From NCBI RefSeq assembly GCF_018687715.1, contig NC_056765.1, forward strand, positions 7,366,501-7,430,500: 64,000 nt of DNA, written 5' to 3'. The position numbers and the translations under genes are program-made. The notes under the pieces were generated by a model. That model worked only from the letters and a program-made list of their open reading frames with translations. It did not search any database and had not been told where the DNA came from. This DNA is from Carya illinoinensis (Eukaryota > Streptophyta > Magnoliopsida > Fagales > Juglandaceae). Positions 12,591-52,990 of the stretch are shown here, piece after piece. The first letter of the stretch is position 1. Every line of letters begins with the position of its first letter.

Positions 12591-13665
12591 CAACACTACA
12601 CCTAGAGGGGAGTGAATAGGTGTAATCCAATTTTTATGGCCTTTTGAAAATTAGTCAAACAAGCAGTTAATAAATGAATCAAATAACACAAATAATCAAC
12701 ACATGATTTGATCACGAAGTGGAAACTCATTTGAAGAACATGTTCAAAATCTAAAACCACTCTGGGTGTAAGACACCACCTCAAATCCACTATAGAAATT
12801 TTAGTTCGTTACAACCAATTTAGATACACTCACAAAACCTTTGTAGTAGCTAAACTTGGCTTGCAACACCACGAGTGACCCACTCGATCTCTACACACAT
12901 GTAGTGTCGGAACTCCGACCTTCTTATAGCTTCCCACGAGAACCTCTCGATCTCTGCATCAACAGCAGCTTCGGACTCTTCCGGCCAACAAATATGTCCA
13001 CTTCAATGGACTCAAGTAAGAGTTGGTGAGTGTTTTGTGGTGGATAAGTGTTTATCCAAGAGAGAATCAACCAAATGGGGGAGAGTTTGCTCTAAAAAGA
13101 TCTTGGAGGCCCTTAGGGTTTTAGCTCTGATTCTCCACCCTTAGAACAGAAGTTAAGTTGTTCTATTTATAGTTCCCATCAAATGAGGCGCTTCAAAACC
13201 CTACATTGTAAGATATCTGAAACATTGGCTCGAGCGAAGGTCGAGCACCACAATCTGCCTGAGTTCACTCGAGCTGAGCGTCGAGCGAGTGTCAAGCGAC
13301 ACACTCTGCCTGGGTTCGCTTGAGTTCAGTGTCGAGCGAGGGTCGAGCGGTTGACTCTGCCTAAGTTCGCTCGAGCTCAGTGTTGAGCGAGGGTCGAGCG
13401 GTGCAATCTGCCTAAGTTCGCTTAAGTTGCATGTCGAGCGAGGGTCGAGCGGTGCAATCTGCCTAAGTTCGCTCGAGCGCCCTGTTAAGCAAGGGTCGAG
13501 CGAAGTCACGTGTTCTGACCAATAACAGGCACACTTCAAGCACGCTTCAAGCCTTTCCTTAACAACACTTATTACAACACTATTTTACACAAATTTTCAC
13601 AAGAATATGCCAATACGCTCATTTTTTCCTCAACAAAAATTATCCCAAAAATATATATATATATA
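12590..13665 (-). mobile_element. LTR/leader-like retroelement fragment
   Basis: A non-coding block containing 'ACACCTAGAGGGGAGTGAAT', which on the minus strand gives the 'ATTCACTCCCCTCTAGGTG' sequence common in plant copia/SIRE-type LTR leaders. It also has 'TTCTATTTATAG' and ends in a 51-bp tandem array. The copia element at 13666 is nested in it, and similar AT-rich, ORF-free sequence resumes at 20024. No matching second LTR was found in the window. Confidence 0.45.
13225..13510. repeat. 51-bp tandem repeat array (about 5.5 units)
   Basis: Consecutive units begin GCCTGAGTTC, GCCTGGGTTC, GCCTAAGTTC, GCCTAAGTTC and GCCTAAGTTC at 51-bp spacing. Each contains 'GTCGAGCGAGGGTCGAGCG' variants. 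Because 51 is a multiple of three, the array stays open on the minus strand and yields a repetitive peptide (SSELRQ..PLDPRSTL). I read this as a by-product, not a gene. Confidence 0.9.
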
Positions 13666-13866
13666 TGTTGTAAACCAACTTGTATTATATGATCACATTT
13701 AACCATCGTAATTGATCAAGTTGTAATCGTCAATTAAGATCTTTATACCCCTATATATATGAGTGTTTCTAAGTTTGGAATATACCATTACTACAAGAAG
13801 CTCTCTCGTTCTCTCTACCTCTTTGAGCTCTCTCTCTTTCTTCCTCTTTTTCATATATTCACAATA
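13666..13866 (+). repeat. 5' LTR of the 13666-20023 element
   Basis: Carries 'CCTATATATATGAGTG' (TATA-like) and a pyrimidine-rich CTCTCT tract before its end. Followed directly by the primer-binding site at about 13867-13881. Confidence 0.9.
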
Positions 13867-14171
13867 CGTTATCAGCACGAGCATAAAGAAATTTCCACCT
13901 CCCAACTTCAATTTCTCTCTTATCTCTCTCCCCGGGTTTTCTAGTAAGAGATTTGAGAAGCAGCTCGAAACATTTGATGTTTTTAATTCTGTAGTGTTTG
14001 AATTGCTTTCTGGGTTTATTTCCCAGATTGTTTTCATTTTTCATTTTCCCATTTTTCTTTCTTCGAATAATCTCTCTCCATTTCTAAACCTTTACTCGGT
14101 TAGTACTACTCAAGGCTCAAAACCAGCTCGCCTTTAGTACGTAGCACAAATCCAACTTTAGTAGCCCAAAC

Positions 14172-14310
14172 CTCCCACCGGGCAAGACCGGTTACCCCAT
14201 GATCGGCGAGAGCCTCGAGTTCTTGTCCTCCGGATGGAAAGATCATTCGGAAAAATTCATCTTCGACCGCATGGCTATTGTTCTCGTCCAAAGTTTTCAA
14301 AACCTCTCTG
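14172..14310 (+). pseudogene. Captured CYP716-type P450 N-terminal fragment
   Basis: From 14172 the + frame reads '[20 protein letters not shown]' then '[15 protein letters not shown]'. This is the proline-rich hinge and first substrate-recognition region of CYP716/CYP85-clan P450s, which I know as PPGKTGWPVIGE(S/T)[17 protein letters not shown]. After a one-base shift the expected continuation 'SSKVFKTSL' appears at 14284-14310. There is no membrane anchor, no I-helix and no heme site. It sits inside the retrotransposon, is GC-rich unlike the surrounding sequence, and is unrelated to the CYP714 array, whose hinge reads 'GITGPPPTLLLGNIWE'. It is probably a transduplicated host fragment, too short to be functional. 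CYP716 enzymes oxidise triterpene scaffolds. Confidence 0.85.
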
Positions 14311-14619
14311 AGCTAATATTGACCGCTCGGCGTGGTGATCTGGCTGCCATGAAGCAGATCCACAACGGATCCGCAAAAAAACCAGCTGCTGATTATAGGT
14401 GGTGGCCATAGCCACCAGAAAGTCGGCGGTGAAGGTGGAACTCTCGGAGTCGGACCACCTGGTGCCGATTTAGTGTGGACCCCGTAAGGGCCGGGAGAGA
14501 GGATCGGACGGTGGAGGTTGAGCAGTCTACGAGGAGAGATCAGGCCGGCCTCATAACACCCATCGACGCCACATCGTCGTTCCGTAAGCAGCTCCTATAC
14601 CTGAAAAATTGCAAGCACC
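14311..14619. other. GC-rich captured-type sequence, source unknown
   Basis: Between the CYP716-like and RPS9-like fragments lies GC-rich, codon-like sequence. Readable pieces include '[15 protein letters not shown]' (14313 on, + frame) and 'ATSSFRKQLLYLKN'. I cannot assign these. They may be further captured exons. No complete ORF. Confidence 0.4.
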
Positions 14620-14686
14620 ATGACCCTGGACGAGAAGAACCCACGTCGGATTTTCGAGGGTGAAGCTCTTCTCAGGAGGATGAACA
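14620..14686 (+). pseudogene. Captured ribosomal protein S9 (uS4) fragment
   Basis: The + frame from 14620 reads M-TLDEKNPRRIFEG-EALLRRMN. This is, residue for residue, the segment I know from plant cytosolic 40S ribosomal protein S9 (...LLTLDEKNPRRIFEG... EALLRRMNRYGLLDE...). The match covers about 21 codons without an indel and ends after 'AACAG', where the host gene would continue with the RYGLL codons. It then turns into unrelated sequence. Without the remaining S4 RNA-binding domain it cannot act in the ribosome. It is best explained as an exon piece captured by the retrotransposon, next to the CYP716-like piece. Confidence 0.85.
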
Positions 14687-15770
14687 GTTCCCAATTTTCT
14701 TCACGAAGCTGCTGGGATATTTTGAAGAGAACCTGTGCGGGTACGGGACGGTTTTCAACGATGCACTTGGTTTATGTCCAATTTCTTGAACCAGATTTTT
14801 GGTTCTGGTTTCTAGTGACGTGGATTCCTCGACTACTATTAGCTGTCGATTAAAATTAACCATCTGATCTCTTCACCTCTCCGATAACAGGAGCGGGAAT
14901 TTAAGGAAGAAGACCCAGGCAAGTCTCTATTTTCATTGGCTCACCAACAAAGGATTTCAGGTCTCGAGTGATGGCTGTGAAAGGTAAAGTCAAAAATGGC
15001 TTCAGGTACATACGTCTCTTTCATCCCATCATTTCAGGCACCATGAAATCTGCTGAAATATTGCTGTGTATTATTGTCGTTATCCCTTGTATTCTAAAAC
15101 TTTGGAAAGTTCAACACGTTACGCACGCTTTTAACACGTGGGGGCCTAACTTTGTTAGGCATCAATATTAAAATCAAGATGAGGATAACGTAAATATTAA
15201 AGAAAGATAAAAGTATAGACAAAACTAAAGACTTTTGAAGGGATGACATGAGGGATGACGTCATCTTCTCCCATTTATCAACCTAGGTGTCAGATTTCTT
15301 CACAATTGATTAGATGGTGATACTATCAACTATGTTAGCCTCTGAATATGCTTGTCCACGTAGGAATAATACACCTTAGTGGCTAAACACGAGCTTCAAA
15401 GATGTGATCAGATTCATTAGTCAAATATAGCATTATAAAATTTTATATTTATTTACATAATTTACATGTCAGTTATATCTGGTGAATTAAAATTTAGATA
15501 ATTTATATTTCAGTTATATTTATAATAAATTTTTATTCACATAGTTTATATATAAATTCTATTTATTTTTTTATACTTGTTATGAATTATTGATGTTAAA
15601 TTTTATATTGAAATAGAAATTGAGCATCCCTAAAGGATCGCTTTAAATCAATAATTTTATTGAGTATCTCATAGTTTAAATGAGTGATACGTGTACCAAA
15701 AGCTCATTATGATTAATGCACTTGAAGTTGTATGATTGAAATTGTGTATTGAAAAGCCACTAAAAAAGAT
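14687..15770. other. Retrotransposon interior, unassigned
   Basis: The first part (to about 14960) still looks exon/intron-like. A frame reads 'FPIFFTKLLGYFEENLCGYG', and AG-flanked pieces such as 'TTTCAGGTCTCGAG' occur. The source is unknown. From about 15170 the composition reverts to AT-rich, stop-filled sequence without recognisable domains. Confidence 0.4.
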
Positions 15771-16505
15771 ATGTTTATAATGAATGTCTCGAATATACTC
15801 CTGAAGTAACAATATTGAGTATGCTCCTGAAGTAGCAATATCGAGTGTAAAAGTTCACAATATATTCTAAATCTATATCTGGTCTTTTAGTGGCTAAGCA
15901 AAATAATAAGCTTTTGATAAGAAATCATTAGTCACGTCCTAATAGTTCCACATTATTCCCTGAAGTGAATGATATTGAATTTATATCATTTTATTCCCTG
16001 AAGTGAAAAGAATGATTCATTTTATTCAAAGAAACCAATAGATTTGACGTGATATGATTTCGGGCCAGAAGCTCGTATTAAAAAAACTACTAGCTTTCTC
16101 TTTGAGATGATATTATACGATTATTAATATATGCCTCGAATATATGTTTATAATGAATGCCTCGAATATACTCCTGAAGTAACAATATTGAGTATGCTCC
16201 TGAAGTAGCAATATCGGGTGTAAAAGTTCACAATATATTCTAAATCTATATCTAGTCTTTTAGTGGCTAAGCAAAATAATGAGCTTTTGATAAGAAATCA
16301 TTAGTCACGTTCTAATAGTTCCACATCATTCCCTGAAGTGAATGATATTGAATTTATATCATTTTATTCCCTGAAGTGAAAAGAATGATGCATTTTATTC
16401 AAAGAAACCAATAGATTTGACGTGATATGATTTCGGGTTAGAAGCTCGCATTAAAAAAACTACTAGCTTTTTTTTTTAGATGATATTATACGATTATTAA
16501 ATTAA
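15771..16505 (+). repeat. 372-bp direct duplication inside the retrotransposon
   Basis: 15771-16142 and 16143-about 16505 are near-identical head-to-tail copies. Both start ATGTTTATAATGAATG and include 'CTCCTGAAGTAACAATATTG' and 'ACTACTAGCTTT.T'. Only scattered substitutions are visible, far fewer than between the two LTRs, so the duplication appears younger than the insertion. Confidence 0.92.
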
Positions 16506-17300
16506 ATATTATGATGCATCAAAAGTGATATAATTAAAAATATTTGTATCCTTTTATGATTATCTTGATCATCCAAAATCAATTACGATAAGTCGAATAA
16601 AATTTCATATGGAAGTCCATAAAAGAACGAGAAGATTCTTTTACTATAAACTCTTACCACCAGAAGTGGAAAGAAAAATTTGTTAGAAGCAAATAAAATG
16701 AAATAATTCGACGTTATCTTGATTATTATATGTGAACTGGAAGTTCACATGATAATTAAATTATGGATGTAATAAGATAAAAATGTCTCATATTTTAGCT
16801 GCAAAAATCCCAGCGAGGATTGAAGTCCTTATAGGACAATTAAGAAATTCAACAATCTAATGAACATAAGACATGTCTAAAGACATGTGAGACTTATTGA
16901 TACAAAATATAGGACATCTCGAAAGAGAAAAGCACAAATAATTTGGTGCTCCTGAAGAGGCCATACCCACAAAACAAGCAATAAAGTCCATCCAAATTTT
17001 CTGTATAAAATTCTCCTATATAAACTCTTGAAGAGTATAAATCTCCTAAAAAGTGCCTCCTGAAGAGGTTTTTCATGAAAATGTCTTTCCTTGAAGAGGG
17101 ACAGGTACCTGAAAATAACAAAATCTCGATACATTTCATGAGTAATGGAGAAATTATGGATAGAAATAAAATAGTTGTCGACAACATATTTCCATATAAG
17201 ATGGCAATTGACATTACCAGAAGTAACGAAAAAAGTGAATCTAGAACCATCGAAGAATACCGACGTAAAATATTGGCCAAATTTGAAAGAAACAATTCCT

Positions 17301-17770
17301 GTAGAATTGATTTCAGTAGTAAAATATGATGCATATGGACTTGTAGTCTAAACACCTGAAGAGGTGATGCTTGTTGAATATCAGTGGGTATTTATATAAA
17401 AGAAATGAAAATATGATATATAAATCACGAGTCAGTTTCTCACAGACAATTCTCGCAGAATTGATATCACTAGTAAAATGTGATACATATGGACTTCTAG
17501 TCCAAACACCTAAAGAGGTAATGCTTGTTGAATGTCAATGGGTATTTATAGAAAGGAAATAAAAATGTGATATATAAATCACGAGTTAGTTTCTTACAAA
17601 CAATTCCTGCAGAATTGATATTACTAGTAAAATGTGATAAATATGGACTTGAAGTCCAAATACCTCAAGATGTGATTTTTGTTAAATATCAGTGGATATT
17701 TATATACATTATATAAAATGCCTGAAACTTTTAATCTGAAAATGTGATATAGAAATCACAAGTTAGTTTC
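17301..17770 (+). repeat. Triplicated 154-bp segment of decayed copia RT
   Basis: Three tandem copies start at 17301, 17455 and 17609. Each begins (C/G)(A/T)(G)AGAATTGATAT and contains a decayed 'VEYQWVFI.KRNENMIYKSR' equivalent of the copia RT motif (V.CKWVF..K...(V)RYKARLVA). One RT finger region thus became three, after or during decay of the element. Confidence 0.9.
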
Positions 17771-18130
17771 TCGAAAAAATAATATTGATATGCTTTTAAA
17801 GTGGTTGAAATTATATTGAGATTTTTATTAGCTTGAAAGTTACCAAGAGTTTGGATATGCATGAGTAATTGCATATTTATATAGATCATTGGATCATGAC
17901 ATATATATGAAAATCCCTGAAGGATAAAGAATGCCTGAAGCTTCTGATCTGAATACATACAGAAATATGTATTATATCTGGAACAAGCTATTGTCAATAT
18001 ATTTTCAGTATCCATTGCAGTTTATATATATGATTTAAATGTCATTGAGGCTCCAGAAGAGCTCATGAAAACTGCACATATTTGAAATATAAATCTGAAA
18101 CCCTTGCAGCTTCAAGGGGAAGATGGATGA
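17771..18130 (+). pseudogene. Decayed copia RT palm region
   Basis: After the triplication the RT continues in fragments. At about 18005-18085 'VYIYDLNVIEAPEELMKTA' replaces the active-site stretch (normally YVDDLN.IGT.EEL). The catalytic DD is gone and stops intervene. This is part of the 13666-20023 element. Confidence 0.75.
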
Positions 18131-18313
18131 TATTATTAGTTCTAAAATACCATCTTTTAAATATAATTAATATTTCAGATTCATATTACGGGTTTGATAA
18201 GAAGTGTGTATTATTAAAGAAGAAATAAAAATGAGCACACAAAACATCTACCAGAAGATAAAAACACAAATATGAATATTTGTGAAATATTATTTTATTA
18301 TATCGAAGAAAAA

Positions 18314-18739
18314 TTACATAAATTTAAGGCATTTCGCCTCATTTTTTAAACGCTCTTGTTCTTCAAGAATCTGCATGGCATCCTTATCAAAAGAAGTAGG
18401 TAATCGAAAAGAAGATTTAAGTAAGGATTTTAAATTCCTATTATCTTGTTTTATTGCTCCTATCTTCATGTTGGACTCTAAAAGAAGTCGTTGAAAAATA
18501 GCAATATTCTCGTGGAGTTTGTCACTACAAGTTTTGGATTGCAATCGCTGAGAAAATGCGACAATTGATGATGAGTATCGGGTACCGAGACTCACAAGCT
18601 CATAGATAGCTTCATTATCTGACTTATTAGTCAGATCATTATTATATTGCATTATAGCACCTGTGCTAGAAGCAGAAACAGCTGATGAACGAGGTGCAGA
18701 ATACCTCATATATTGGCCATGAGAAGATTGCTGAGCCAT
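18314..18739 (-). CDS. Antisense ORF inside the retrotransposon (hypothetical, 141 codons)
   Basis: On the minus strand an ATG at 18739 opens 141 codons starting MAQQSSHGQYMRYSAPRSSA. The product has a Ser-rich N-terminus, a polar middle and a heptad-like C-terminal part ('LEEQERLKNEAK') that could form a short coiled coil. No domain is recognised. It lies within a segment (about 18130-19110) that splits the RT of the copia element, running opposite to pol. Upstream on its own strand are TATA-like boxes (18865-18872, CTATAAAAG; and 18968-18979) and a pyrimidine-rich leader, a plausible promoter and 5' UTR. Codon integrity here contrasts with the stop-filled pol around it. It may be an additional retroelement ORF, part of another inserted element, or chance. 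Confidence 0.4.
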   Translation of the reverse strand: MAQQSSHGQYMRYSAPRSSAVSASSTGAIMQYNNDLTNKSDNEAIYELVSLGTRYSSSIVAFSQRLQSKTCSDKLHENIAIFQRLLLESNMKIGAIKQDNRNLKSLLKSSFRLPTSFDKDAMQILEEQERLKNEAKCLKFM

Positions 18740-19119
18740 TACAGAGTAAGAATGCAGAAAGAAATTGCAAGATAAAAATGAAGAAAGAGATTGCAGAATA
18801 AGAATGCAGTATGATTACAGAAAAGTGAAGAATATGAGATTCGAATGAGATGAGCCGAATATCTCTTTTATAGAGAAAATTATGACAAATTACTTCACAG
18901 CATCTCTCGTGAAGTATCTCTTTACAAGAGACAAGAAGATATAGTATTATAGCTCTGCGGCACCTGACAGCTATATAAGAGTTGAAAAAGCTTGCGGTGC
19001 TTATCTGATCTAAAAAGCTGGCCACCTTTTTTGTTGAAAAATGAGGTTAGCGGTTTAATATTGATGAATTCTTCACTTACTGTGTTATTTATGAAAACTC
19101 CAGAAGAGCACAACTCCAG

Positions 19120-19620
19120 AAGAGTAGTGAATTTAATATTAAAATGATCTTGAATCAATATGGTGAATTTCACTATAAAGTCTTGAAGCACTTCTATATG
19201 GACAAAACTCATCCCCTGAGTACTCCAATGGTTACTCGATAATTTGATGAGCAGAAAAATCTATTTCGTCCTTGTAAAGACGATGGAGAATTTTTTGATC
19301 TTGAAGTACCTTATCTCAGTACAATTGAAGCCCTGAATATGTGATTATTTTATCAACATGGATCAAGTCCACAGTTAGTTGGATATACAGATGCGGGTTA
19401 TCTTTCAGATCCACACAAAAAGATCATTGCAATTCATGAGAAGAAAAATGAAATTGATGTCAAGAAGATACGGTCAAGTAATTATCTGGCAGATTTATTC
19501 TCTAAAGCATTACCAACTGCAATATTTAAGAAAATTGTACATAACATTGAAATGCGGAGAGTTGAAGACATATTATCATGCACTTTTCAGGGGAAGTAAT
19601 GTCTTGAAGACTTGTACTGA
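19120..19620 (+). pseudogene. Copia RT C-terminus and RNase H remnants
   Basis: At about 19178-19240 'HFYMDKTHPLSTPMV' is readable, followed by 'NLFRPCKDDGEFF' and 'LEVPYLSTIEAL'. RNase H pieces follow: 'QLVGYTDAGYLSDPHK' (about 19374-19420) and 'SSNYLADLFSKALPT' with 'FKKIVHNIEMRR' (about 19470-19560). All are standard copia pol C-terminal motifs in the right order, with stops between them. Confidence 0.85.
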
Positions 19621-19821
19621 TTGTACTCTTTTTCCTTTGCTAAAGTTTTATCTCTCTGGGTTTTCCTTTGCAAGGTTTTAATGAGGTAATCCTAAAACAC
19701 TTGGCGGTACACATGAATACTGTACTCTTTTTCCTTCGCCATTAGTTTTTTCCTACAGGGTTTTTCCTTGGCAAGGTTTTAACGAGGCATATTCTTTAAA
19801 TATGGTCATCCAAAGGAGAAG

Positions 19822-20023
19822 TGTTGTAAACCGACTTGTATTGTATGACCACATTTAGCCGTCGTAATTGACCAAGTCATAGTCGTCAATTAAGATCTTT
19901 GTACCCTTATATATATGAGTGTTTCTAAGTTCAGAATATACAATTAATACAAGAAGCCTCTCTTGTTCTCTCAACCTCTTTGAACTCTCTCTCTTTCTTT
20001 TTCTTTTTCATATATTCACAACA
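19822..20023 (+). repeat. 3' LTR of the 13666-20023 element
   Basis: Partner of 13666-13866, starting TGTTGTAAACCGAC and ending ACAACA. Preceded by the polypurine tract at about 19810-19821. Confidence 0.9.
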
Positions 20024-20921: not shown

Positions 20922-23153
20922 TTACAACTTCTTCACCAAGAGATGTACTCCATTTTCAGGTTCTATCACCATCCTAATAGTAGGTGCATGGCTGTACTTT
21001 GGGGAGAGGGAGAAGGAGAATTTAGAGAGAAGTAGTGCTATCAGTATCTTGAGTTCGACCATGGCCAAGTGCTGCCCAGCACACACACGGGGCCCAAATC
21101 CAAATGGCACGTACAAGTGCGGATGACTGCAAGCACCCTTAATTCCATTTGCAAATCTAGCTGGCTTGAACTTTAAGGCATCCGGTCCCCATATCTCTGG
21201 ATCAGTATGTGATGTCAACAACACTGTCCAAATGTTGACACCCTTTGGGATATTAAGGTCCCCCACTTTCATGTCCTTCAAGGCCTCCCTCGACACCACA
21301 GGGACAGGTGGATAAAGGCGCAACGATTCTTGTATCACCATCGTTAGCTTCATACCCAAAATGATCAATTATGTGCTTAGAAATGCATTCTTTACTCTTT
21401 GTGCTTAAAGATTCAGATATACGGTTTGCACACAGTGTAATTATTAGGTACACTAGAATACATAAATGTGGTATTTATCTCATATCGGCATACGATTACC
21501 TGTTTCATCTTACGAAGCATATCGGCATCGGGTGTCCCACCAGGGCAGATATCGAGAACCTCAACACGAACACGGTCTTGCCATTCTTGATTTGAAGCTA
21601 AGAGCATGAGGCACCATGTGGCAGAAACTGCAGTGCTCTCGTACCCAGCCAAGTATATGTTCTTGCAGTTGTCAACAATGAAACTTTCGGTAGCGTCCTG
21701 GCTTAGGTCACTGTTCTTAGCTCCCTCAAGAACCATATGCAGGAAATCCTTCTCATGATCAAAGGCTTTCTGTCTCTCCTTTACTCCCTCTAGTATCAAA
21801 CTACGGACTTCCTTTTGTAACCTCCATCCTTCCCTATTGCTTCTCGTAGGAAGGTACCTGAAACATGTAAAGTAGATATGTCCAAGCTGTTGCTTTAAAT
21901 GGTTCTGTAAGCAATGATATAATTTTAGAAATATCATTATTTTACCTTAAGGCAGGTATCCCAGTAGACAAACCTCTCCTGGACATGACCCCCATTAGAG
22001 CTCTTAATTTTAGGAAAATCTTTTACCCTTGCGCATAGTTGCTGCCAAAACAGGCCCTTGCGATCACATCACCAGAGAAACTTCTCATGTAATCGTCGAT
22101 GTGTATCTCTGCAGTTCCACCCTCAGTCTCAATCCTACTCCTCCATGAGTTTAGCAGTGGTGTGGTCGACTCGATAATTAAGTTTATCATTCCCTGCATG
22201 GGTTTAAGATCCAATCGACTTGTGTGTATGTCAATTAAAATTTGCTAGATTTACAAAAAAAAATCTTATAAGTTAAAACTGACATAATTTTAAGTAATAT
22301 GTCAAATTTATTTTATAAGAAAAATTTATTTTCAAATTTAATGTTTTGTATTAAGTTATGTTAATTTATAAACTTATTTTTATAAAATCTTTTTGTAGAT
22401 CATCTAAGTACTTTCTTGTATCAATTACCTACTAATTCGGGAGGCAACCAATATTATTTAATCTTTGCTAAAATAATCATACCTTGACCTTCTCCATGTA
22501 AAACTCAGGAGCAAGGATTTTGCTCTGCCTAGCCCATATAGCCCCATTTGAAGTGATAATGCCCCGACCAAGCAAAGGACCAAACTCTTCTTGCTGTTGC
22601 GATGGTTTCCCAAAGTCCAAGGATGTGCATGTGGTTATCTCTCTCAAAATGCCAGGTTCGTTTATGAATATTTTTGGTGAAATACCCAGAGAAAAGACAA
22701 ATAAATCACCTGTTCAAACATAAAACATACAGCAAATAAAAGAGCTTATAATAACTTCTGCATCTTTGGCAACTATCAATCTTCTTTCATAACACGAGAT
22801 CGAACTGAGAATTTGAGATAAATATATAGGATAGTGCAAGATGATGGAGACACACCATATTCTTTCCTCCATTGCTCTAAGAATGGAAAGATGAGAGCAG
22901 CACAGTTATGGGAGACGGGGATTTCTCCGGCGGGAGCCTTAACTGTGGTGGATAGGGCCTTCTTTATCTCCCAAATATTTCCGAGAAGCAAAGTCGGCGG
23001 TGGTCCGGTGATGCCTTGCTTTCTCAGTGCAGAACGAAGCCTGTCCGGCTTCAGCACCAGCACATTATACAGGCGTACTAACACCCCGGCGAAACCAAGA
23101 AATGCAACGGCAATGAATATCTTTGCCGCATCAAACTTGAGCTGATCCTCCAT
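20922..23153 (-). pseudogene. CYP714: CYP714-family cytochrome P450, copy B (nonsense codon in exon 3)
   Basis: Five exons on the minus strand: 22856-23153, 22483-22709, 21946-22193, 21500-21857 and 20922-21347, all with GT-AG borders, 518 codons in total. The ATG at 23153 precedes a hydrophobic anchor (AAKIFIAVAFLGFAGVLV) and the hinge 'GITGPPPTLLLGN'. Exon 4 has the I-helix 'AGYEST'. Exon 5 has 'ESLR' (ExxR), 'FKPARF' and the heme loop 'PFGFGPRVCAG'. CYP714 enzymes are ER-bound monooxygenases acting on gibberellins or, in some dicot subfamilies, triterpenoids; the substrate is not deducible here. Codon 232 is TAA (22023-22025), where copies C and E have GAA. The predicted product would stop at 231 residues, before the I-helix and heme site. 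Everything else is intact, so it is either a young pseudogene or a nonsense allele. Confidence 0.9.
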
Positions 23154-32818: not shown

Positions 32819-35778
32819 TTACAACTTCTTCAGAAAGAGATCTACTCCATTTTCAGGTTCCATGAGCATCCTAATAGTAGGTGCATGGCTGTACTTTGGG
32901 GAGAGGGAGAAGGTGAAGTTGGAGAGAAGTAGCGCTATCAGTATCTTGAGTTCGACCATGGCTAAGTGCTGCCCAAGACACACGCGGGGCCCAAATCCAA
33001 ATGGCATGTACAAGTGTGGATGACTGCAAGCACCCTTAACTCCATTTGCAAATCTAGCTGGGTTGAACTTTAAGGCGTCTGGTCCCCATATTTTTGGATC
33101 AGTATGCAATGTCAACGACACTGTCCAAATGTTGACACCTTTTGGGATATTAATGTTCCCAAATCTCAGATCATTCAATGCCTCCCTAGGCACCGCGGGG
33201 GCAGGTGGATAAAGACGCAACGATTCATGTATCACCATAGTTAGCTGCATGTCCAAATCAAATTTTGTACTCAGAAATGCATTTACCCTTTGTGCTAATA
33301 GATTCAGATACGGTTTGCATACCGTATAATTATTATAAGTAATCTCATAATACGTACGCGTGGTTTTTATTTCATATCATAGAATGTTATGTTAATTCAA
33401 ATTTATATGATTACCTGTTTCATCTTACGAAGCATATCAGCATCAGGTGTACGACCTTGGCAGATGTCGAGAACCTCAGCACGGACACGGTCTTGCCAAT
33501 CTTGATTTGAAGCTAAGAGCATGAGGCATCATGTGGCAGAAACTGCAGTGCTCTCATACCCAGCCAAGTATATGTTCTTGCAATTGTCAACAATGAAATT
33601 TTCGGTAGCCTCCTGGCTCAGGTTACTGTTCTTAGCTCCCTCAAGAACCATATGCAAAAAATCCTTCTCATGATCAGCGGCTTTCTGTCTCTCCTTGACA
33701 ACCTCCAGTATCAAGCTGCGGATTTCTTTTTGTAACCTCCATCGTTCCCTATTGCTTCTCGTGGGAAGGAACCTGTAACATGTAAAGTGGATATCTCCAA
33801 GCTGTTGCTTTAGATGACTCTCTAGTCTACAACATTGGGATTGGCTTAGCCAAAATGTCAGTGCATCTCTAAAATTTGCCTAAATATCAATAAAATGGTT
33901 TTTATTAGAATAGTCAAAATAAGGAAGCTCTACATATGAGCTACAGTACCACCAAACTTTCCTTCAAATTTGGAGATACACTGTTCATCTTCAAAAAAAT
34001 TATTTTTTTCTTAAAATATATACCAACTTCAGATTTGGACATTGCTCATTTTCCTGGCCATTCGATTGGGCTTTTCACATTGGGATGCTGGATAAAATAT
34101 TGGATTATTAAATTATTAATTAACATATGATTAGTGTAGTTGCAAAATATGAAAAAAAAAAAGGTTAAAAATATTATTATTAAAAAAATAATATCATATT
34201 ATTATTTTGACTAATCTAATGTAGGGTTATATGGGTGCAGCTACTATGCCGCCCAGCGGTAAGCCAGACAGTTATTCTTTTGTATTTTTTTTCATATTTT
34301 TTAATCACTTTCGTAGTCACTAAATAAAATAAAAAAATATACACAATATATAATTAAAATCACTTCCTTAATGGAGTGGTATGCTCCAGGTGGCATACTA
34401 GTATTTCTCATCTTGAATAGTTTTGATTTTATGCAAAACATATACTTTATTGAAACCAATGTCATAAATTTTAAGAGGTTTCATCATTTATCTTTACTAA
34501 ATTACTAAATTGAAGAACCATCCTTATTTTTTTCTTGGATAAAATAAAAGAAAAAACTCATGAAAGAATTCAGCTCGCACCTTAAGCCTGGTATCCCAGT
34601 GGACAAAGTTGAAGTGGACGTGGCCCCTATTAGAGCTCCCAGTTTTAGGAAAATCTTTTCCCCTTGGGCATAGTTGCTGCCAAAACATGCTCTGGAGATC
34701 ACATCACCAGAGAAACTTCTTAGGTAATCGTCGATGTGTATGTCTGCAACTCCACCCTCAGTCTCAATCCTACTCTTCCATGAGTTCAGCAGTGGGGTGG
34801 TCGACTCGATAATTAAGTTTATCATCCCCTACATGGGTTTAAGATCACAATCTACTTGTGTGTATGTCAATTGAAAATTGCATGATTTACAAAAGAAAAT
34901 ATTATAAAAATAAATTTACAAACTGAAATAATTTTACTTGATGGTTAGATCTAAGTACTTCTGGTATTAATTTTAATGTTTGCTAAAATAATCATACCTT
35001 GACCTTCTCCATGTAAAACTCAGGAGCAAGGATTTTGCTCTGCCTGGCCCATGTAGCCCCATTTGAAGTGATAATGCCCTGACCAAGCAAAGGACCAAAC
35101 TCTTTCTGCTGTTCGGATGGTTTCCCAAAGTCCAAGGATGTGCATGTGGTTATCTCTCTCAAAATGCCAGGTTCGTTTATGAATATTTTTGGTGAGTTGC
35201 CCAGAGAAAATACAAATAAATCACCTGTTCAAACATAAAACATAAAGCGAAGAAAAGAGCTTACTTCTGCATGTTTGGCAACCATTAAGTTTTAAGGTAT
35301 TTTCTCCCCCATCTTCAATATTTTTTTAAAAAAATATTTATCACAAACTCTATCGATCCAAACCTATCAAATCGTAATTTTCATAAAAACTCATAAAAAT
35401 TATTTTAAATGATCAATCTTCTTTCATAACAGATCAAACTGAGAATCTGAGATAAATATTGCAAGATGATGGAGATCACACACCATATTGTTTCCTCCAT
35501 TGCTCAAAGAATGGAGCGATGAGAGCAGCACAGTTATGGGAGACGGGGATTTCTCCGGCAGGAGCCTTAACTGTGGTGGATAGGGCCTTCTTTATCTCCC
35601 AAATATTTCCGAGTAGCAAAGTCGGCGGTGGTCCAGTGATGCCTTGCTTTCTCAGTGCGGATCGAAGCCTTTCCGGCTTCAGCACCAGCGCATTATACAG
35701 GCGTACCAACAGTCCCGCTAAACCAAGAAATGCAAAGGCAATAAATATCTTTGCTGCATCAAACTTGAGCTCCTCCAT
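32819..35778 (-). pseudogene. CYP714: CYP714-family cytochrome P450, copy C (nonsense codon in exon 4)
   Basis: Exons on the minus strand: 35484-35778, 34998-35224, 34581-34828, 33415-33772 and 32819-33244, all GT-AG, 517 codons. Exon 1 is one codon shorter than in B and E (MEELKF against MEDQLKF). It retains the anchor, the 'GITGPPPTLLLGN' hinge, 'AGYEST', 'ESLRLYPPAP', 'FNPARF' and 'PFGFGPRVCLG'. Codon 338, directly after 'AVSAT', is TGA (33529-33531) where B and E have TGG. The product would end just past the I-helix and lack ExxR and the heme cysteine. Intron 3 is 808 bp instead of about 88 because of an AT-rich insertion (about 33820-34500). This is a pseudogene by one visible base change unless the stop is a sequencing error. 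Confidence 0.9.
33820..34500. mobile_element. Insertion in intron 3 of copy C
   Basis: Intron 3 is 87-88 bp in B and E but 808 bp here. The extra sequence begins around 'TCTACAACATTGGGATTGGC' and runs AT-rich to about 'CTAATCTAATGTAGGG' (34223) and beyond. It looks like one or two MITE-type elements. Termini and target duplication were not resolved. It does not disturb the splice sites. Confidence 0.55.
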
Positions 35779-48740: not shown

Positions 48741-50997
48741 TTACAACTTCTTCACCAAGAGATGTACTCCATTTTTAGGTTCTATGATGATCCTAATAGC
48801 AGGTGCATGGCTGTACGTTGGGGAGGGGGAGAACGAGAAGTTGGAGAGAAGTACTGCTATCACTATCTTGAGTTCCATCATGGCTAAGTGTTGTCCAGCA
48901 CACACGCGGGGCCCAAATCCAAATGGCATGTACAAGTGCGGATGACTACAAGCACCCTTAATTCCATTTGCAAATCTAGCTGGGTTGAACTTTAAGGCAT
49001 CCGATCCCCATATTTCTGGATCAGTATGCGATATCATCGGCACTGTCCAAACGTTGACACCCTTGGGGATATTAATGTTCCCCAACTTCATGTCATTCAA
49101 GGCCTCCCTAGGCACCACGGGGGCAGGTGGATAAAGACGTAACGATTCATGTATCACCATCGTTAGCTGCATATCCAAATTGAATTGTGTAATCAGAAAT
49201 GCATTCTCTATTCGTTGTGCTAATGGATTCAGATACGGTTTGCACACAGAGTAATTATTAATTAGAAATCTCAAAATACATATGTGATTCTTATTTCATA
49301 TCATAGGATGTTATATTACTTCAAATTTTAATGATTACCTGTTTCATCTTACGAAGCATATCCGCATCGAGTGTACTACCTTGGCAAATGTCGAGAACCT
49401 CAGCACGGACACGGGCTTGCCATTCTTGATTTGAAGCTAAAAGCATGAGGCACCATGTGGCAGAAGCTGCAGTGCTCTCGTACCCAGCCATGTATATGTT
49501 CTTGCAGTTGTCAACAATGAAACTTTCGGTAGCCTCCTGGCTTAGGCCACTGTTCTTAGCTCCCTCAAGAACCATATGCAGGAAATCCTTCTCATGATCA
49601 GAGGCTTTTTGTCTCTCCTTTACTACCTCTAGTATCAAATTACGGACTTCCTTTTGTAACCTCCATCCTTCCCTATTGCTTCTCGTAGGAAGGTACCTGT
49701 AACATGTAAAGTGGATATGCCAAGATATTGCTTTAAATGGTTTTGTAAGGAATGATATAATTTTAGAAATATCATCATTTTACCTTAAGCCAGGTATGCC
49801 AATGGACAAACCCATCATGGACATGACCCCCATTAGAGCTCTTAGTTTTAGGAAAATCTTTTCCCCTTGCACATAGTTGCTGCCAAAACAGGCCCTTGCG
49901 ATAACATCACCAGAGAAACTTCTCATGTAATCGTCGATGTGTATGTCTGCAGTTCCACCCTCAGTCTCAATCCTACTCCTCCATGAGTTTAGCAGTGGTG
50001 TGGTCGACTCGATAATTAAGTTTATCATTCCCTGCATGGGTTTAAAATCACAATCTACTTGTGTGTATGTGAATTAAAATTTGTGAGATTTACAAAAACA
50101 AATATTATAAAAATAAGTTTACCAACTGACATAATTTTAAGTCTATGTCAAATTTATTTTATAAGAAAAAATTATGCTCCAATTTAATTTTTTGTATTAA
50201 GTAATGTTAGTTTATAAACTTATTTTTATAAAATCTTTTTTTTTAGATTAAGAACTTTCTTGTATCAATTACCTACTAATTCGGGAGGCAACCAATATTT
50301 ATATTTAATGTTTGCTCAAATATACCTTGACCTTCTCCATGTAAAACTCAGGAGCAAGGATTTTGCTCTGCCTGGCCCATATAGCCCCATTTGAAGTGAT
50401 AATGCCCTGACCAAGCAAAGGACCAAGCTCTTCTTGTTGTTCCGCTGGTTTCCCAAAGTCCAAGGATGTGCATGTGGTTAGCTCTCTCAAAATGCCAGGT
50501 TCGTTTATGAATATTTTTGGTGTGATACCCAGAGAAATCACAAATAAATCACCTGTTTAAACATAAAACATACAGCAAATAAAAGAGCTTATAACTTCTG
50601 CATGTTTGGCAACTATCAATCTTCTTTTATAACACGAGATCGAACTGAGAATTTGAGATAAATATATAGGATATAAGTGCAAGATGATGGTAGACACACC
50701 ATATTGTTTCCTCCATTGCTCAAAGAATGGAAAGATGAGAGCAGCACAGTTATGGGAGACGGGTATTTCTCCGACGGGAGCCGTAACTGTGGTGGATAGG
50801 GCCTTCTTTATCTCCCAAATATTTCCAAGTAGCAAAGTCGGCGGTGGTCCGGTGATGCCTTGCTTTCTCAGTGCAGATCGAAGCCTGTCAGGCTTCACCA
50901 CAAGCGCATTATACAGGCGTACAAACAGTCCGACGAAACCAAGAATTGCAACGGCAATGAATATCTTTGCTGCATCAAACTTGAGCTGATCCTCCAT
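48741..50997 (-). CDS. CYP714: CYP714-family cytochrome P450, copy E (intact)
   Basis: Five exons on the minus strand: 50700-50997, 50326-50552, 49784-50031, 49339-49696 and 48741-49166, all with GT-AG introns (147, 294, 87 and 172 bp). They join to 518 codons with no stop. The start at 50997 matches the other copies; an in-frame ATG lies further upstream at 51081. Domains: N-terminal ER anchor (about residues 8-28), hinge 'GITGPPPTLLLGN' (about 51-63), I-helix oxygen-binding AGYEST (328-333), ExxR (E384, R387), 'FNPARF' (437-442), and heme loop PFGFGPRVCAG (458-468) with Cys466 as the thiolate ligand. Length is normal for CYP714 (CYP72 clan). Family members oxidise gibberellins or, in CYP714E, triterpenoid C-23; which applies here is not visible. 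Neighbours are its own broken paralogues. Assignment to P450 is certain; CYP714 is from motif recall. Confidence 0.93.
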
Positions 50998-51080
50998 GGC
51001 CCTAGTCTTCTGTCTTCCACCTTTCACGTACGTAGAAATGAGCTTGGTTGGCTTGGTTTGTTTCCCCATACATACGTACA

Positions 51081-51088
51081 TATATAAT
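51081..51088 (-). promoter_or_regulatory. Candidate TATA box of copy E
   Basis: TATATA on the minus strand about 84 bp upstream of the ATG at 50997, in the same relative place as in copy B. Confidence 0.55.
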
Positions 51089-52990
51089 GAGTTTGGTCAA
51101 ACCTGAACTCTTTCATGATCCTTGAATTGTTGGATTAAATTTTGGATTAATTGATCTGTTTGACTCTTTGAATTAAGAGGAAATAAAAAATAAAAAAAGC
51201 ATTGTATAGTAAATACATCCGATGGTCCATATAAAGAAGACAGACATATTATATATATATATATATATAGTTTTGAATATTAATGTTGGTGCATCGATCT
51301 ACGTCGTCCATCAGTAATTCTGCATGGATAATATATTAAATGCAATAATATCTACATGATATCTGTTCTTTCTCTGTAGAGAAACTGATCGACCATTGAA
51401 TTCAATGCAAATAGCAATTAAGATGTCTTGCATTCTACTTGACCTGCCAATACACATAATTTTCTTGCCCCTTCAAATAATGGCCCACCTTAAAAAATTA
51501 AAGATGTGGATTATTAGTTGAAAATTTCTAAGGCAATCTTCTCTTTTTTTTCGTTATTGACTTATAATTTTTTTTAAAAAGAGGAGATTAGTGATTTCGA
51601 AAAGAGAAAATCTGATTATATTTACAAAAAAAAGTTTGAAAAGAGAGAAGATTGACTTAGAAATTTAAAAATTGGAAAAGTCAAGTAGTCGTCAGGACCA
51701 CCGAATGCCATTCCAAGGTGGTGGCTATCAAAAAGGCCTTTAATTTCAGGTCCAGTTGCACGACCCCATCTACATATAATATGTCTATGCTATTATAGTT
51801 TTCAACTTCTAACGATTAACAACTTATATATATAGCTTCATTAAATGTGGTTACTATTAATGTCCATAGTTATAAACTTATCAAAAATTCTATGCATGTA
51901 TAGTCACTTTTACTCTATTTTTTACGCACTTCACTGATATAATTAGTTATATATTTAAAAAAATTAATACAGTCAATCACATCAATATAATATGTAATGA
52001 GTATATAAAAATGATTGTATGTAGCAAAACTCCTTATTATAAATACTATTGTGTCCTTGGAAGTCTTGGAGAGTGTCTCTTTTTCTTTGCTATATATTCT
52101 TATAATTAAATGAAGAAATGCTAGATATAAGTAGCCTTAGTTGTACCTAGTGTAAGCCTTTTGTTAAAAAGTGAACTCCATAAAAATAATTCATTTTGTT
52201 TTTTTTAAGTAGATCTGCTCTTGCACAATTTCTTTCCCATATTTTATTCATCATTCCCACAAAATTATCTACATTCTAGAGTTATTTTAGGAGTAAAATT
52301 ACTATTCCCCAATCAATTTTTGGCGCGGCATGATTAGAATAGTAAGATGGGTGGCCGCCTCGTAGAAAATCCTTATAGTGTTGCACCCATCACTTAAATA
52401 CGATATAAAAAAGTCTCAAAACATCCATTCCATGATTATAACGTTATAGAGACAATGAATAGGACGTACGAACCTTCACCAATCAAAGACTCAAATTTTT
52501 TTTGATAGAAAAGACTCAAAGTTAGGCTCTATATATCACGTCAAAAAGTAAAACAGATTATGGTAGATTGTATTATATGTTCGGCAGTCAATAGTATCAT
52601 ATGTTCAACAGTCAATAATGTACAACAAATCAGGGCTTAAATAATTCCCATGATTAGGACTCGTCTGTTTTTATAAAACAGAGCCATAACTTATGGGGTC
52701 TGCTGATTTGACGGATCGGAGCATATGTGGGCGTGGCATGATCTATATATGGGATGACAAATGGTGTACCGTGTACGTATCAACTTGCCCCTTCAAGCAC
52801 AATGGGAGAGAGCCGATGGTGAGCCAATGAGCTTGTCATGCACGTAAAGGAGAAACTTTGGACCCTGATTAGAGGTTTGGTAAGCACGTTTACATATTGG
52901 TCCTTTTCAGAAATGAATATTCGAGCATGCACTAAAAAAAATAGATTTTTACGATTAATTTATTGCAACGAAAAAACTATTAGCAACTAG
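51089..52990. other. 5' flank of CYP714 copy E
   Basis: No gene. It contains a single diverged copy (51480-51780) of the arm that forms the palindrome upstream of copy D, an (AT)n tract at about 51250-51268, and distal flank shared with 45450-45900. Just before the retroelement lies an insert of about 60 bp starting 'CACTAAAAAAAATAGATTTT' that is absent at 56330. It resembles a CACTA-type terminus. Confidence 0.65.

Follow-up and report, generated by a model that had tools for sequence, protein, structure and literature searches.

Gene capture by LTR retrotransposons is already known from Bs1 of maize, an LTR element that holds pieces of three unrelated host genes according to the review PMC13317346, and gene fragments inside other maize LTR elements are reported by Baucom et al. 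2009 (PMC2774510). In the papers considered here, such captures mostly concern one gene at a time. Jumps of reverse transcriptase between templates are described for mini-Tnt1 in tobacco, where template switching is found together with trans-mobilisation of a defective copia element (PMC2923131), and reportedly for Triticeae elements (PMC1950507); in both cases the jumps described occur between element RNAs, not host mRNAs.

Gene-fragment cargo, sometimes from several genes, is also a property of Pack-MULEs and Helitrons. To our knowledge, these are DNA transposons that as a rule show no intron loss in their cargo. In retroviral non-homologous transduction, host RNA is joined via short homologies in the course of reverse transcription, which is also what is proposed below; we know of it only for single cargo genes, not for a recurrent patchwork in a germline family. 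Finally, the copia lineage Bianca uses a primer binding site (PBS) complementary to a half tRNA-Ile that carries inosine, a site that Neumann et al. 2019 (PMC6317226) report for no lineage other than Bianca.

The locus described here combines features of these systems. It lies in the window, a stretch of 64,000 nucleotides of Carya illinoinensis (C14:7366501-7430500), which was compared with the genome (674 Mb in 17 contigs). The element has a primer site of the Bianca type and copia-type pol remnants, and differs from Bianca in that the copies examined show no frame of gag-pol length and carry patchworks of host-gene pieces. As in Bs1, internal fragments of several unrelated host genes are present, whereas the many short pieces that fill one slot of the element differ from one group of copies to another, a variety of cargo that the account of Bs1 consulted here (PMC13317346) does not describe. 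Open-access papers yielded no report of a family with differing multi-gene patchworks in one slot, nor of such host-gene capture in Bianca.

Architecture of the element

The LTR retrotransposon spans 13666-20023 of the window and presents the hallmarks of its class, namely two LTRs, a PBS after the 5' LTR and a polypurine tract before the 3' LTR. Its features are as follows.

13666..13866, + strand: 5' LTR, starting with TG; its final bases are ATA, compared with ACA in most sister copies, and its end is set by the position of the PBS
13867..13880, + strand: PBS of 14 nt directly after the 5' LTR, sequence CGTTATCAGCACGA
13881..13921, + strand: short leader common to one subgroup of copies, with 80-84% identity to five leader matches (L042-L046)
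14972..17718, + strand: region shared with sister copies, which starts here; 79-88% identity to sisters, mostly non-coding
17024..17329, + strand: copia pol remnant recognised by eye, without credible Pfam match
19345..19599, + strand: remnant of the RNase H end of pol, recognised by eye
19812..19821, + strand: polypurine tract AAAGGAGAAG, read from the sequence, before the 3' LTR
19822..20023, + strand: 3' LTR, which pairs with the 5' LTR

The two LTRs are 89.5% identical over 200 bp, and the element is flanked on both sides by ATATA, the length of a 5-bp target site duplication, yet within an AT repeat. Neither gag nor an intact pol was found in the window element, only scraps of pol that were mostly recognised by eye; the RNase H remnant has a longer form in the sister L050 (Pfam RNase_H, 0.0013, below its cut-off). 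Across nine copies (L051 ending at its locus end) no intact gag-pol was detected, the longest stop-to-stop frame being 228 aa, which is too short for gag-pol and sets these copies apart from autonomous copia elements. Sense frames of the shared region were listed for five copies.

Several further observations concern the element and its surroundings. Positions 15766-16127 and 16139-16500 form a direct duplication of 362 bp (96% identical); alignments of sisters to one half overlap those to the other, so that sisters seem to have a single copy. The shared region also contains, at 18314-18814 on the - strand, an open frame of 166 aa that is antisense to the element, has no credible Pfam match and is perhaps an older, fixed capture. 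Immediately upstream of the element, 13230-13484 is a tandem repeat with a 51-bp unit, and similar units adjoin the sister L054 (9231-9343). Downstream, exons of similar P450 genes follow in series on the - strand (20922-21946, 32819-33376, 48741-49779 and 50557-51096), perhaps a tandem cluster adjoining the element; we take them to be of CYP714 type. Among them, 20922-21368 is recognised by Pfam (p450, 2.5e-39) and the others were recognised by eye.

A patchwork of host sequence behind the leader

The initial annotation had placed a GC-rich island with fragments of at least two unrelated host genes at 14130-14760. The fragments are real, and both their number and the extent of the island were understated: genome searches with 14130-14960 and 13860-14200, followed by re-alignment, resolve twelve mostly touching pieces of 35-167 bp from more than two genes within 13973-14913, in a patchwork that runs from 13922 (first matched piece at 13973) to 14971.

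Patch 1: 13973..14055, + strand, 93% to C2:8119697
Patch 2: 14040..14148, + strand, 90% to C6:6882867; 11-bp microhomology with patch 1
Patch 3: 14143..14309, + strand, sense, CYP716-type P450, 92% to C15:42003469 (E 3e-61)
Patch 4: 14308..14359, + strand, sense, ankyrin-repeat protein, 85% to C2:35462918
Patch 5: 14397..14453, + strand, sense, phenylalanine ammonia-lyase (PAL) type (Lyase_aromatic), 95% to C9:34029279
Patch 6: 14450..14492, + strand, P450 of CYP76 type by eye, match inside sister copy L054 (= L025); nothing in Pfam
Patch 7: 14491..14541, + strand, sense, CRT-like transporter gene, 92% to C14:28838754; partly in sister L054 too
Patch 8: 14545..14619, - strand, antisense, V-ATPase proteolipid (ATP-synt_C), source on C7, with a 13-nt deletion
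Patch 9: 14621..14687, + strand, sense, RPS9 (uS4), 100% over 67 bp to C6:27268902
Patch 10: 14786..14826, + strand, matched only in sisters L042, L051 and L052, where it is inverted
Patch 11: 14817..14865, + strand, 90% to C3:23781355
Patch 12: 14879..14913, + strand, PP2C-like ORF by eye, 94% to C1:31029778; nothing in Pfam

Together, the twelve patches account for 791 of the 1,050 bp of 13922-14971. The sequence between and after the two genes first noticed, which had been described as codon-like and of unknown source, thus mostly resolves into further host pieces, and some stretches stay without a match, the main ones being 14360-14396, 14690-14785 and 14914-14971. Genome-wide E-values of the patches range from 3e-61 down to 1e-5 for the shortest piece, which rules out chance similarity. 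More than two parental loci were located: ten of the twelve patches match loci outside known element copies, and the other two (6 and 10) match sister copies only. Four loci that had appeared to be source genes (L025, L028, L029 and L032) turned out to be the sister copies L054, L053, L051 and L052, respectively, and patches 6 and 10 are therefore without a located source gene.

The source frames of the ankyrin, Lyase_aromatic, ATP-synt_C and Ribosomal_S4 pieces are confirmed by Pfam, the last of these being the ORF at C6:27268902, and the CRT-like frame reaches 4e-5, below the curated cut-off; Pfam returned nothing for three further source frames nor for the CYP76-like frame. It also gave nothing credible for the window's own frames, because the pieces are too short. 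In the PDB, the 24 aa of the RPS9 patch match plant 40S S9/uS4 (E 5e-8). By eye, the P450 source at C15:42003469 looks like the beginning of a gene that we assume to belong to the CYP716 family, and the Pfam p450 profile is silent on the 205-aa ORF of this locus. The assignment relies on DNA identity and on the appearance of the source frame, together with a similar database protein (P0001, resembling the same P450 start) with 82% identity over 50% of the CYP716 frame; PDB matches of this frame to P450s are weak (E 0.095). Both genes named by the initial annotation are thus confirmed, the CYP716-type piece at 14143-14309 and the RPS9 piece at 14621-14687.

The frames of the island are short and broken, and their inspection gave no indication of a coding function. 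The suggestion that a transcript from the 5' LTR could act as antisense RNA on CYP716 and RPS9 genes is unlikely to hold, since both patches lie in sense orientation and such a transcript would not be antisense to either. The V-ATPase piece (14545-14619) is the only antisense one among the window patches of known gene; it retains 19 nt of intron 1, and an overlapping piece is present in the sisters L051-L053.

Bases shared by neighbouring sources were read by eye at the eight junctions where patches touch or nearly touch, using a sister copy as a stand-in for one source at the fourth, fifth and last of them; three further boundaries, separated by 13-98 nt of unmatched sequence, were left out of the count. 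In order, the shared bases number 11, 5, 2, 4 and 2 at the first five junctions and 5 or 3 at the last, whereas the sixth and seventh share none and have insertions of 2-3 nt and 1 nt, respectively. At least 2 bp are therefore shared at six of the eight junctions, a level expected at 16% of random junctions (p ~3e-4; 2e-3 if the match rate is set to 0.30).

Sister copies and the primer-site edge

Besides the window copy, 23 sister copies were compared: fourteen (L010-L023) found via the region downstream of the island, five (L042 and L047-L050) via the leader and four (L051-L054) via shared patches. These 24 copies are a chosen sample of a larger family. In 22 of them the PBS stands directly after the LTR (15 exact, seven with one mismatch), and it was not found in the examined stretches of L013 and L020. 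The complement of the PBS corresponds to nucleotides 27-40 of tRNA-Ile(AAU), in a numbering that we assume, except for a C opposite A34. A34 is inosine in the mature tRNA according to PMC6317226, and the site thus shows the half tRNA-Ile complement with C opposite inosine 34 that characterises Bianca. The tRNA-Ile motif occurs 14 times in the genome, two of the sites being called tRNA-Ile(aat) by ARAGORN. On these grounds, the element is best classified as a member of a non-autonomous, Bianca-type Ty1/copia family, its lineage being assigned by the primer site, with only short pol remnants present.

According to the 80 nt after the PBS, the 22 copies fall into seven groups (single linkage), the largest of which contains ten copies including the window and retains the short leader; L051-L053 may have joined it only via CT-rich sequence. 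Comparison of seven group representatives gives an identity of 0.82 for the final 10 bases of the LTR and 1.00 for the PBS, which was itself the search pattern; over the 40 nt that follow, it lies at 0.21-0.31 in all bins. The same edge is seen from single copies: when the start of L016 was used as query (best 40 of 213 candidates scored), 20 of the 26 matches listed end exactly at the last PBS base, one is the query itself, and the remaining ones end at 47, 55, 65 and, twice, 444. Foreign sequence thus begins at the base after the PBS in several lineages. For L017, by contrast, 19 of the 24 matches listed end 1-8 nt past the PBS, and the window copy keeps its short leader between PBS and island.

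On the other side, the shared region starts at 14972-14992 in the alignments of ten of the first fourteen sisters and at 15120, 15272, 15272 and 15503 in the other four (L022 having an additional separate piece further up); in L047-L054 it begins at about 15435-15550. Between primer site or leader and shared region lies a slot of 920-4,859 bp (14 slots measured), which is filled by different sequence in sister copies. Being bounded in this way by the PBS or short leader and a family-wide region, the island is very probably not a separate insertion with its own target duplication. The expectation that several copies would carry the same island did not hold: it is absent from all 23 other copies, three short stretches of it recurring in some, the window itself is the only full-length match among the 18 genome matches listed, and eight of the twelve patches have no match in the sisters examined.

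Some other fillings are common to three or four copies each. For L014, L015 and L019, the comparison included some 300-440 bp of upstream sequence, yet alignment begins only with the LTR, and their unlike upstream flanks therefore mark separate insertions; the sharing of one filling by such copies indicates that patched elements have transposed again. In six other copies whose LTR pair was resolved, the two LTRs are 88-97% identical; the pair of L051 is lost to the locus end, and L054 gave a different, 84% repeat instead. Modules are also shared between otherwise unlike fillings: the slot of L010 is part L012-like and part L014-like, and four window patches (6, 7, 8 and 10) are found again in sisters, the last of them in inverted orientation. 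This sharing indicates recombination among elements too, so that not all pieces are fresh captures, and the patchworks may have been built over several cycles.

Host genes were sought in the sister slots as well. The slots of L047, L014, L017 and L016, plus a short part of L051, were searched against the genome, the best 40 of the candidates being scored for L047, L017 and L016. The L014 and L017 slots each match about eight further loci, mostly as touching pieces; among the scored candidates, the L016 slot matches four or five further loci and the L047 slot two or three. Five of these source loci were read (L060, L063, L064, L065 and the CRT-like gene, L026), and some of the others may be further patchworks. 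Altogether, ten sister slots yielded host-gene pieces or matched further loci, at the DNA level in L014, L016, L017 and L047 and at the protein level in L023, L048, L050, L051, L052 and L054. Five of the 29 sister-slot frames gave a gene match in Pfam, and the PDB returned nothing for two L017 frames. The protein matches are the following.

L023 slot, sense: CTP synthase, 1e-8 (Pfam)
L048 slot, antisense: protein kinase, 5e-6 (Pfam)
L052 slot, antisense: B-box zinc finger, 1e-5 (Pfam)
L054 slot, antisense: GH17 glucanase, 7e-6 (Pfam), just under its cut-off
L054 slot, sense: CRT-like, 2e-4 (Pfam), below its cut-off
L051 slot, sense: ascorbate peroxidase, 4e-11 (PDB)
L050 slot, sense: U2AF35, 1e-12 (PDB)

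Both the window and L017 contain neighbouring stretches that match the CRT-like gene at C14:28.838 Mb. Two side observations concern opposite orientations. In the L047 slot, the pieces at 705-874 and 896-1049 correspond to a single locus (C13:9.29 Mb) but run in opposite directions, as though the copying process had folded back. The locus at C4:942970-943450 (L064) has two pieces in common with L016, again in opposite orientations, and a 20-nt internal repeat; it is probably another patchwork rather than a gene.

Spliced and antisense pieces

Three sister pieces cross introns of their source loci, and in all three, which are sense, a GT-AG intron has been precisely removed. In L014, the exon ends CTTACGAG and AGGCTCT are joined, between which C3:6552300 has GTTAGT...AATAG (C3:6552334/6552853); the joined stretch is also present in L010, L015 and L019, and the spliced piece is longer in L010 than in L014. 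In L016, TTGCTTTCTG joins GTAATATATA, and C3:17784700 has GTATGG...CCTCAG between them (C3:17784731/17785390). Finally, in L051, CCGTCTCGC is directly followed by ATGGCACTC, and in the ascorbate peroxidase gene on C13 GTACGA...GTGCAG lies between them (C13:12505761/12505966). These three exact removals show that spliced RNA was copied, a conclusion that applies to these pieces and not to every piece. Intron-crossing pieces came to notice by splitting into two adjacent matches, and one that retains its intron gives a single match and would escape; three spliced pieces out of three therefore give no measure of frequency. The island of the window itself showed no spliced piece.

Orientation was assessed for 14 distinct pieces of window and sisters, on the basis of splice signals or of a match (family, PDB or DNA) to a readable gene. 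Ten are sense (CYP716, ankyrin, PAL, CRT-like, RPS9, CTP synthase, ascorbate peroxidase, U2AF35 and the two spliced C3 genes) and four antisense (V-ATPase, the protein kinase of L048, the B-box of L052 and the GH17 of L054), which rules out a simple scheme of sense pieces only and hence mRNA only. The window V-ATPase piece, being antisense and retaining 19 nt of intron, further means that mature sense mRNA was not the sole source. As to the lack of introns in Bs1-type captures, the observations in this family are mixed, with three spliced sister pieces and intron sequence in one window piece.

Origin of the patchworks

Taken together, the start at the PBS edge, the use of one slot, the microhomology at junctions and the pieces with introns removed speak for reverse transcription, and host sequence was probably picked up by template switching during this process in a non-autonomous Bianca-type Ty1/copia family. 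Proteins supplied in trans would mobilise the element RNA, and priming would be by the cut 5' half of tRNA-Ile. The minus-strand DNA would copy the 3' part of the element and then quit the template, at edges that lie between 14972 and about 15550 depending on the copy. Synthesis would proceed from one short host RNA to the next, some of these templates, at least, being spliced mRNAs, and each switch would take place where a few bases of microhomology are shared. In a last step, the end of the cDNA would be joined to strong-stop DNA, which consists of the LTR and the 14-nt primer site, and for this reason the foreign segment would start at the primer-site edge. The patched copy would integrate and then be able to transpose again, and co-packaged copies would exchange modules. 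We infer the supply in trans, the order of strand transfers, RNA rather than DNA as the source of every piece, and whether one cycle or several were involved. The antisense pieces and the intron remnant are the weak points of this reading: the former would require switching in plus-strand synthesis, or antisense transcripts, and the latter unspliced RNA or DNA. The L017 edges at 1-8 nt past the PBS and the leader kept by the window copy also count against it.

A variant that overlaps with the template-switching explanation is a stepwise build-up, in which older pieces would be inherited and one or two gained or lost per cycle, mainly by recombination between element RNAs and never with a dozen switches in one cycle. 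It accounts for the modules common to otherwise unlike fillings (such as the two parts of L010), for the recurrence of patches 6, 7, 8 and 10, and for the spliced C3 piece that is longer in L010 than in L014, whereas the uniqueness of the whole window island among the matches listed, with eight patches that lack a match in the examined sisters, speaks against it; we regard it as possible but less likely than not.

Patching at the DNA level is less probable still, and we regard it as unlikely. Breaks in integrated or linear element DNA would be filled by a polymerase (e.g., Pol theta) copying unlinked sites, and the patched copies would have transposed later. Short pieces in both orientations, microhomology and intron sequence are the look of plant filler DNA, and the window island, with its antisense piece that retains intron sequence, resembles it in these respects; three precise intron losses do not fit this route, however, nor does a foreign segment that occupies one slot of the compared copies and starts at or near the PBS edge or short leader. 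A separate gene-carrying DNA transposon (Pack-MULE or Helitron) nested inside the element, a kind of element that often carries gene fragments according to PMC13317346, can be dismissed as highly improbable, since there is no inverted repeat of at least 20 bp at the island ends (diverged ends could be missed), unrelated fillings occupy the same slot of sisters with edges set by the PBS or leader and the shared region (the comparison by which a Helitron was judged), and three introns were removed in sister pieces.

Significance

Beyond the template-switching reading itself, the family may possess a standing capture slot, an idea that we put forward tentatively, as a serious possibility. Reverse transcription would often miss the primer site and end by chaining scraps of host RNA that are end-joined to strong-stop DNA, and with each transposition burst a fresh random selection of the cell's transcripts would enter the germ line. 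The tRNA base that follows the PBS complement, G26, presumably carries a modification that stops reverse transcriptase; a half-tRNA primer, whose copy would stop at this modified base, precisely at the start of the foreign segment, may be what permits such an ending.

A family of this kind, in which the chains of short and partly spliced host transcripts in one slot differ between copy groups, would provide a natural record of template switching and a source of chimeric sequence, as well as a way to read which RNAs were present at the site of reverse transcription. It would also make it possible to test directly at which point, and by what route, foreign RNA joins the reverse-transcription cycle in plants.
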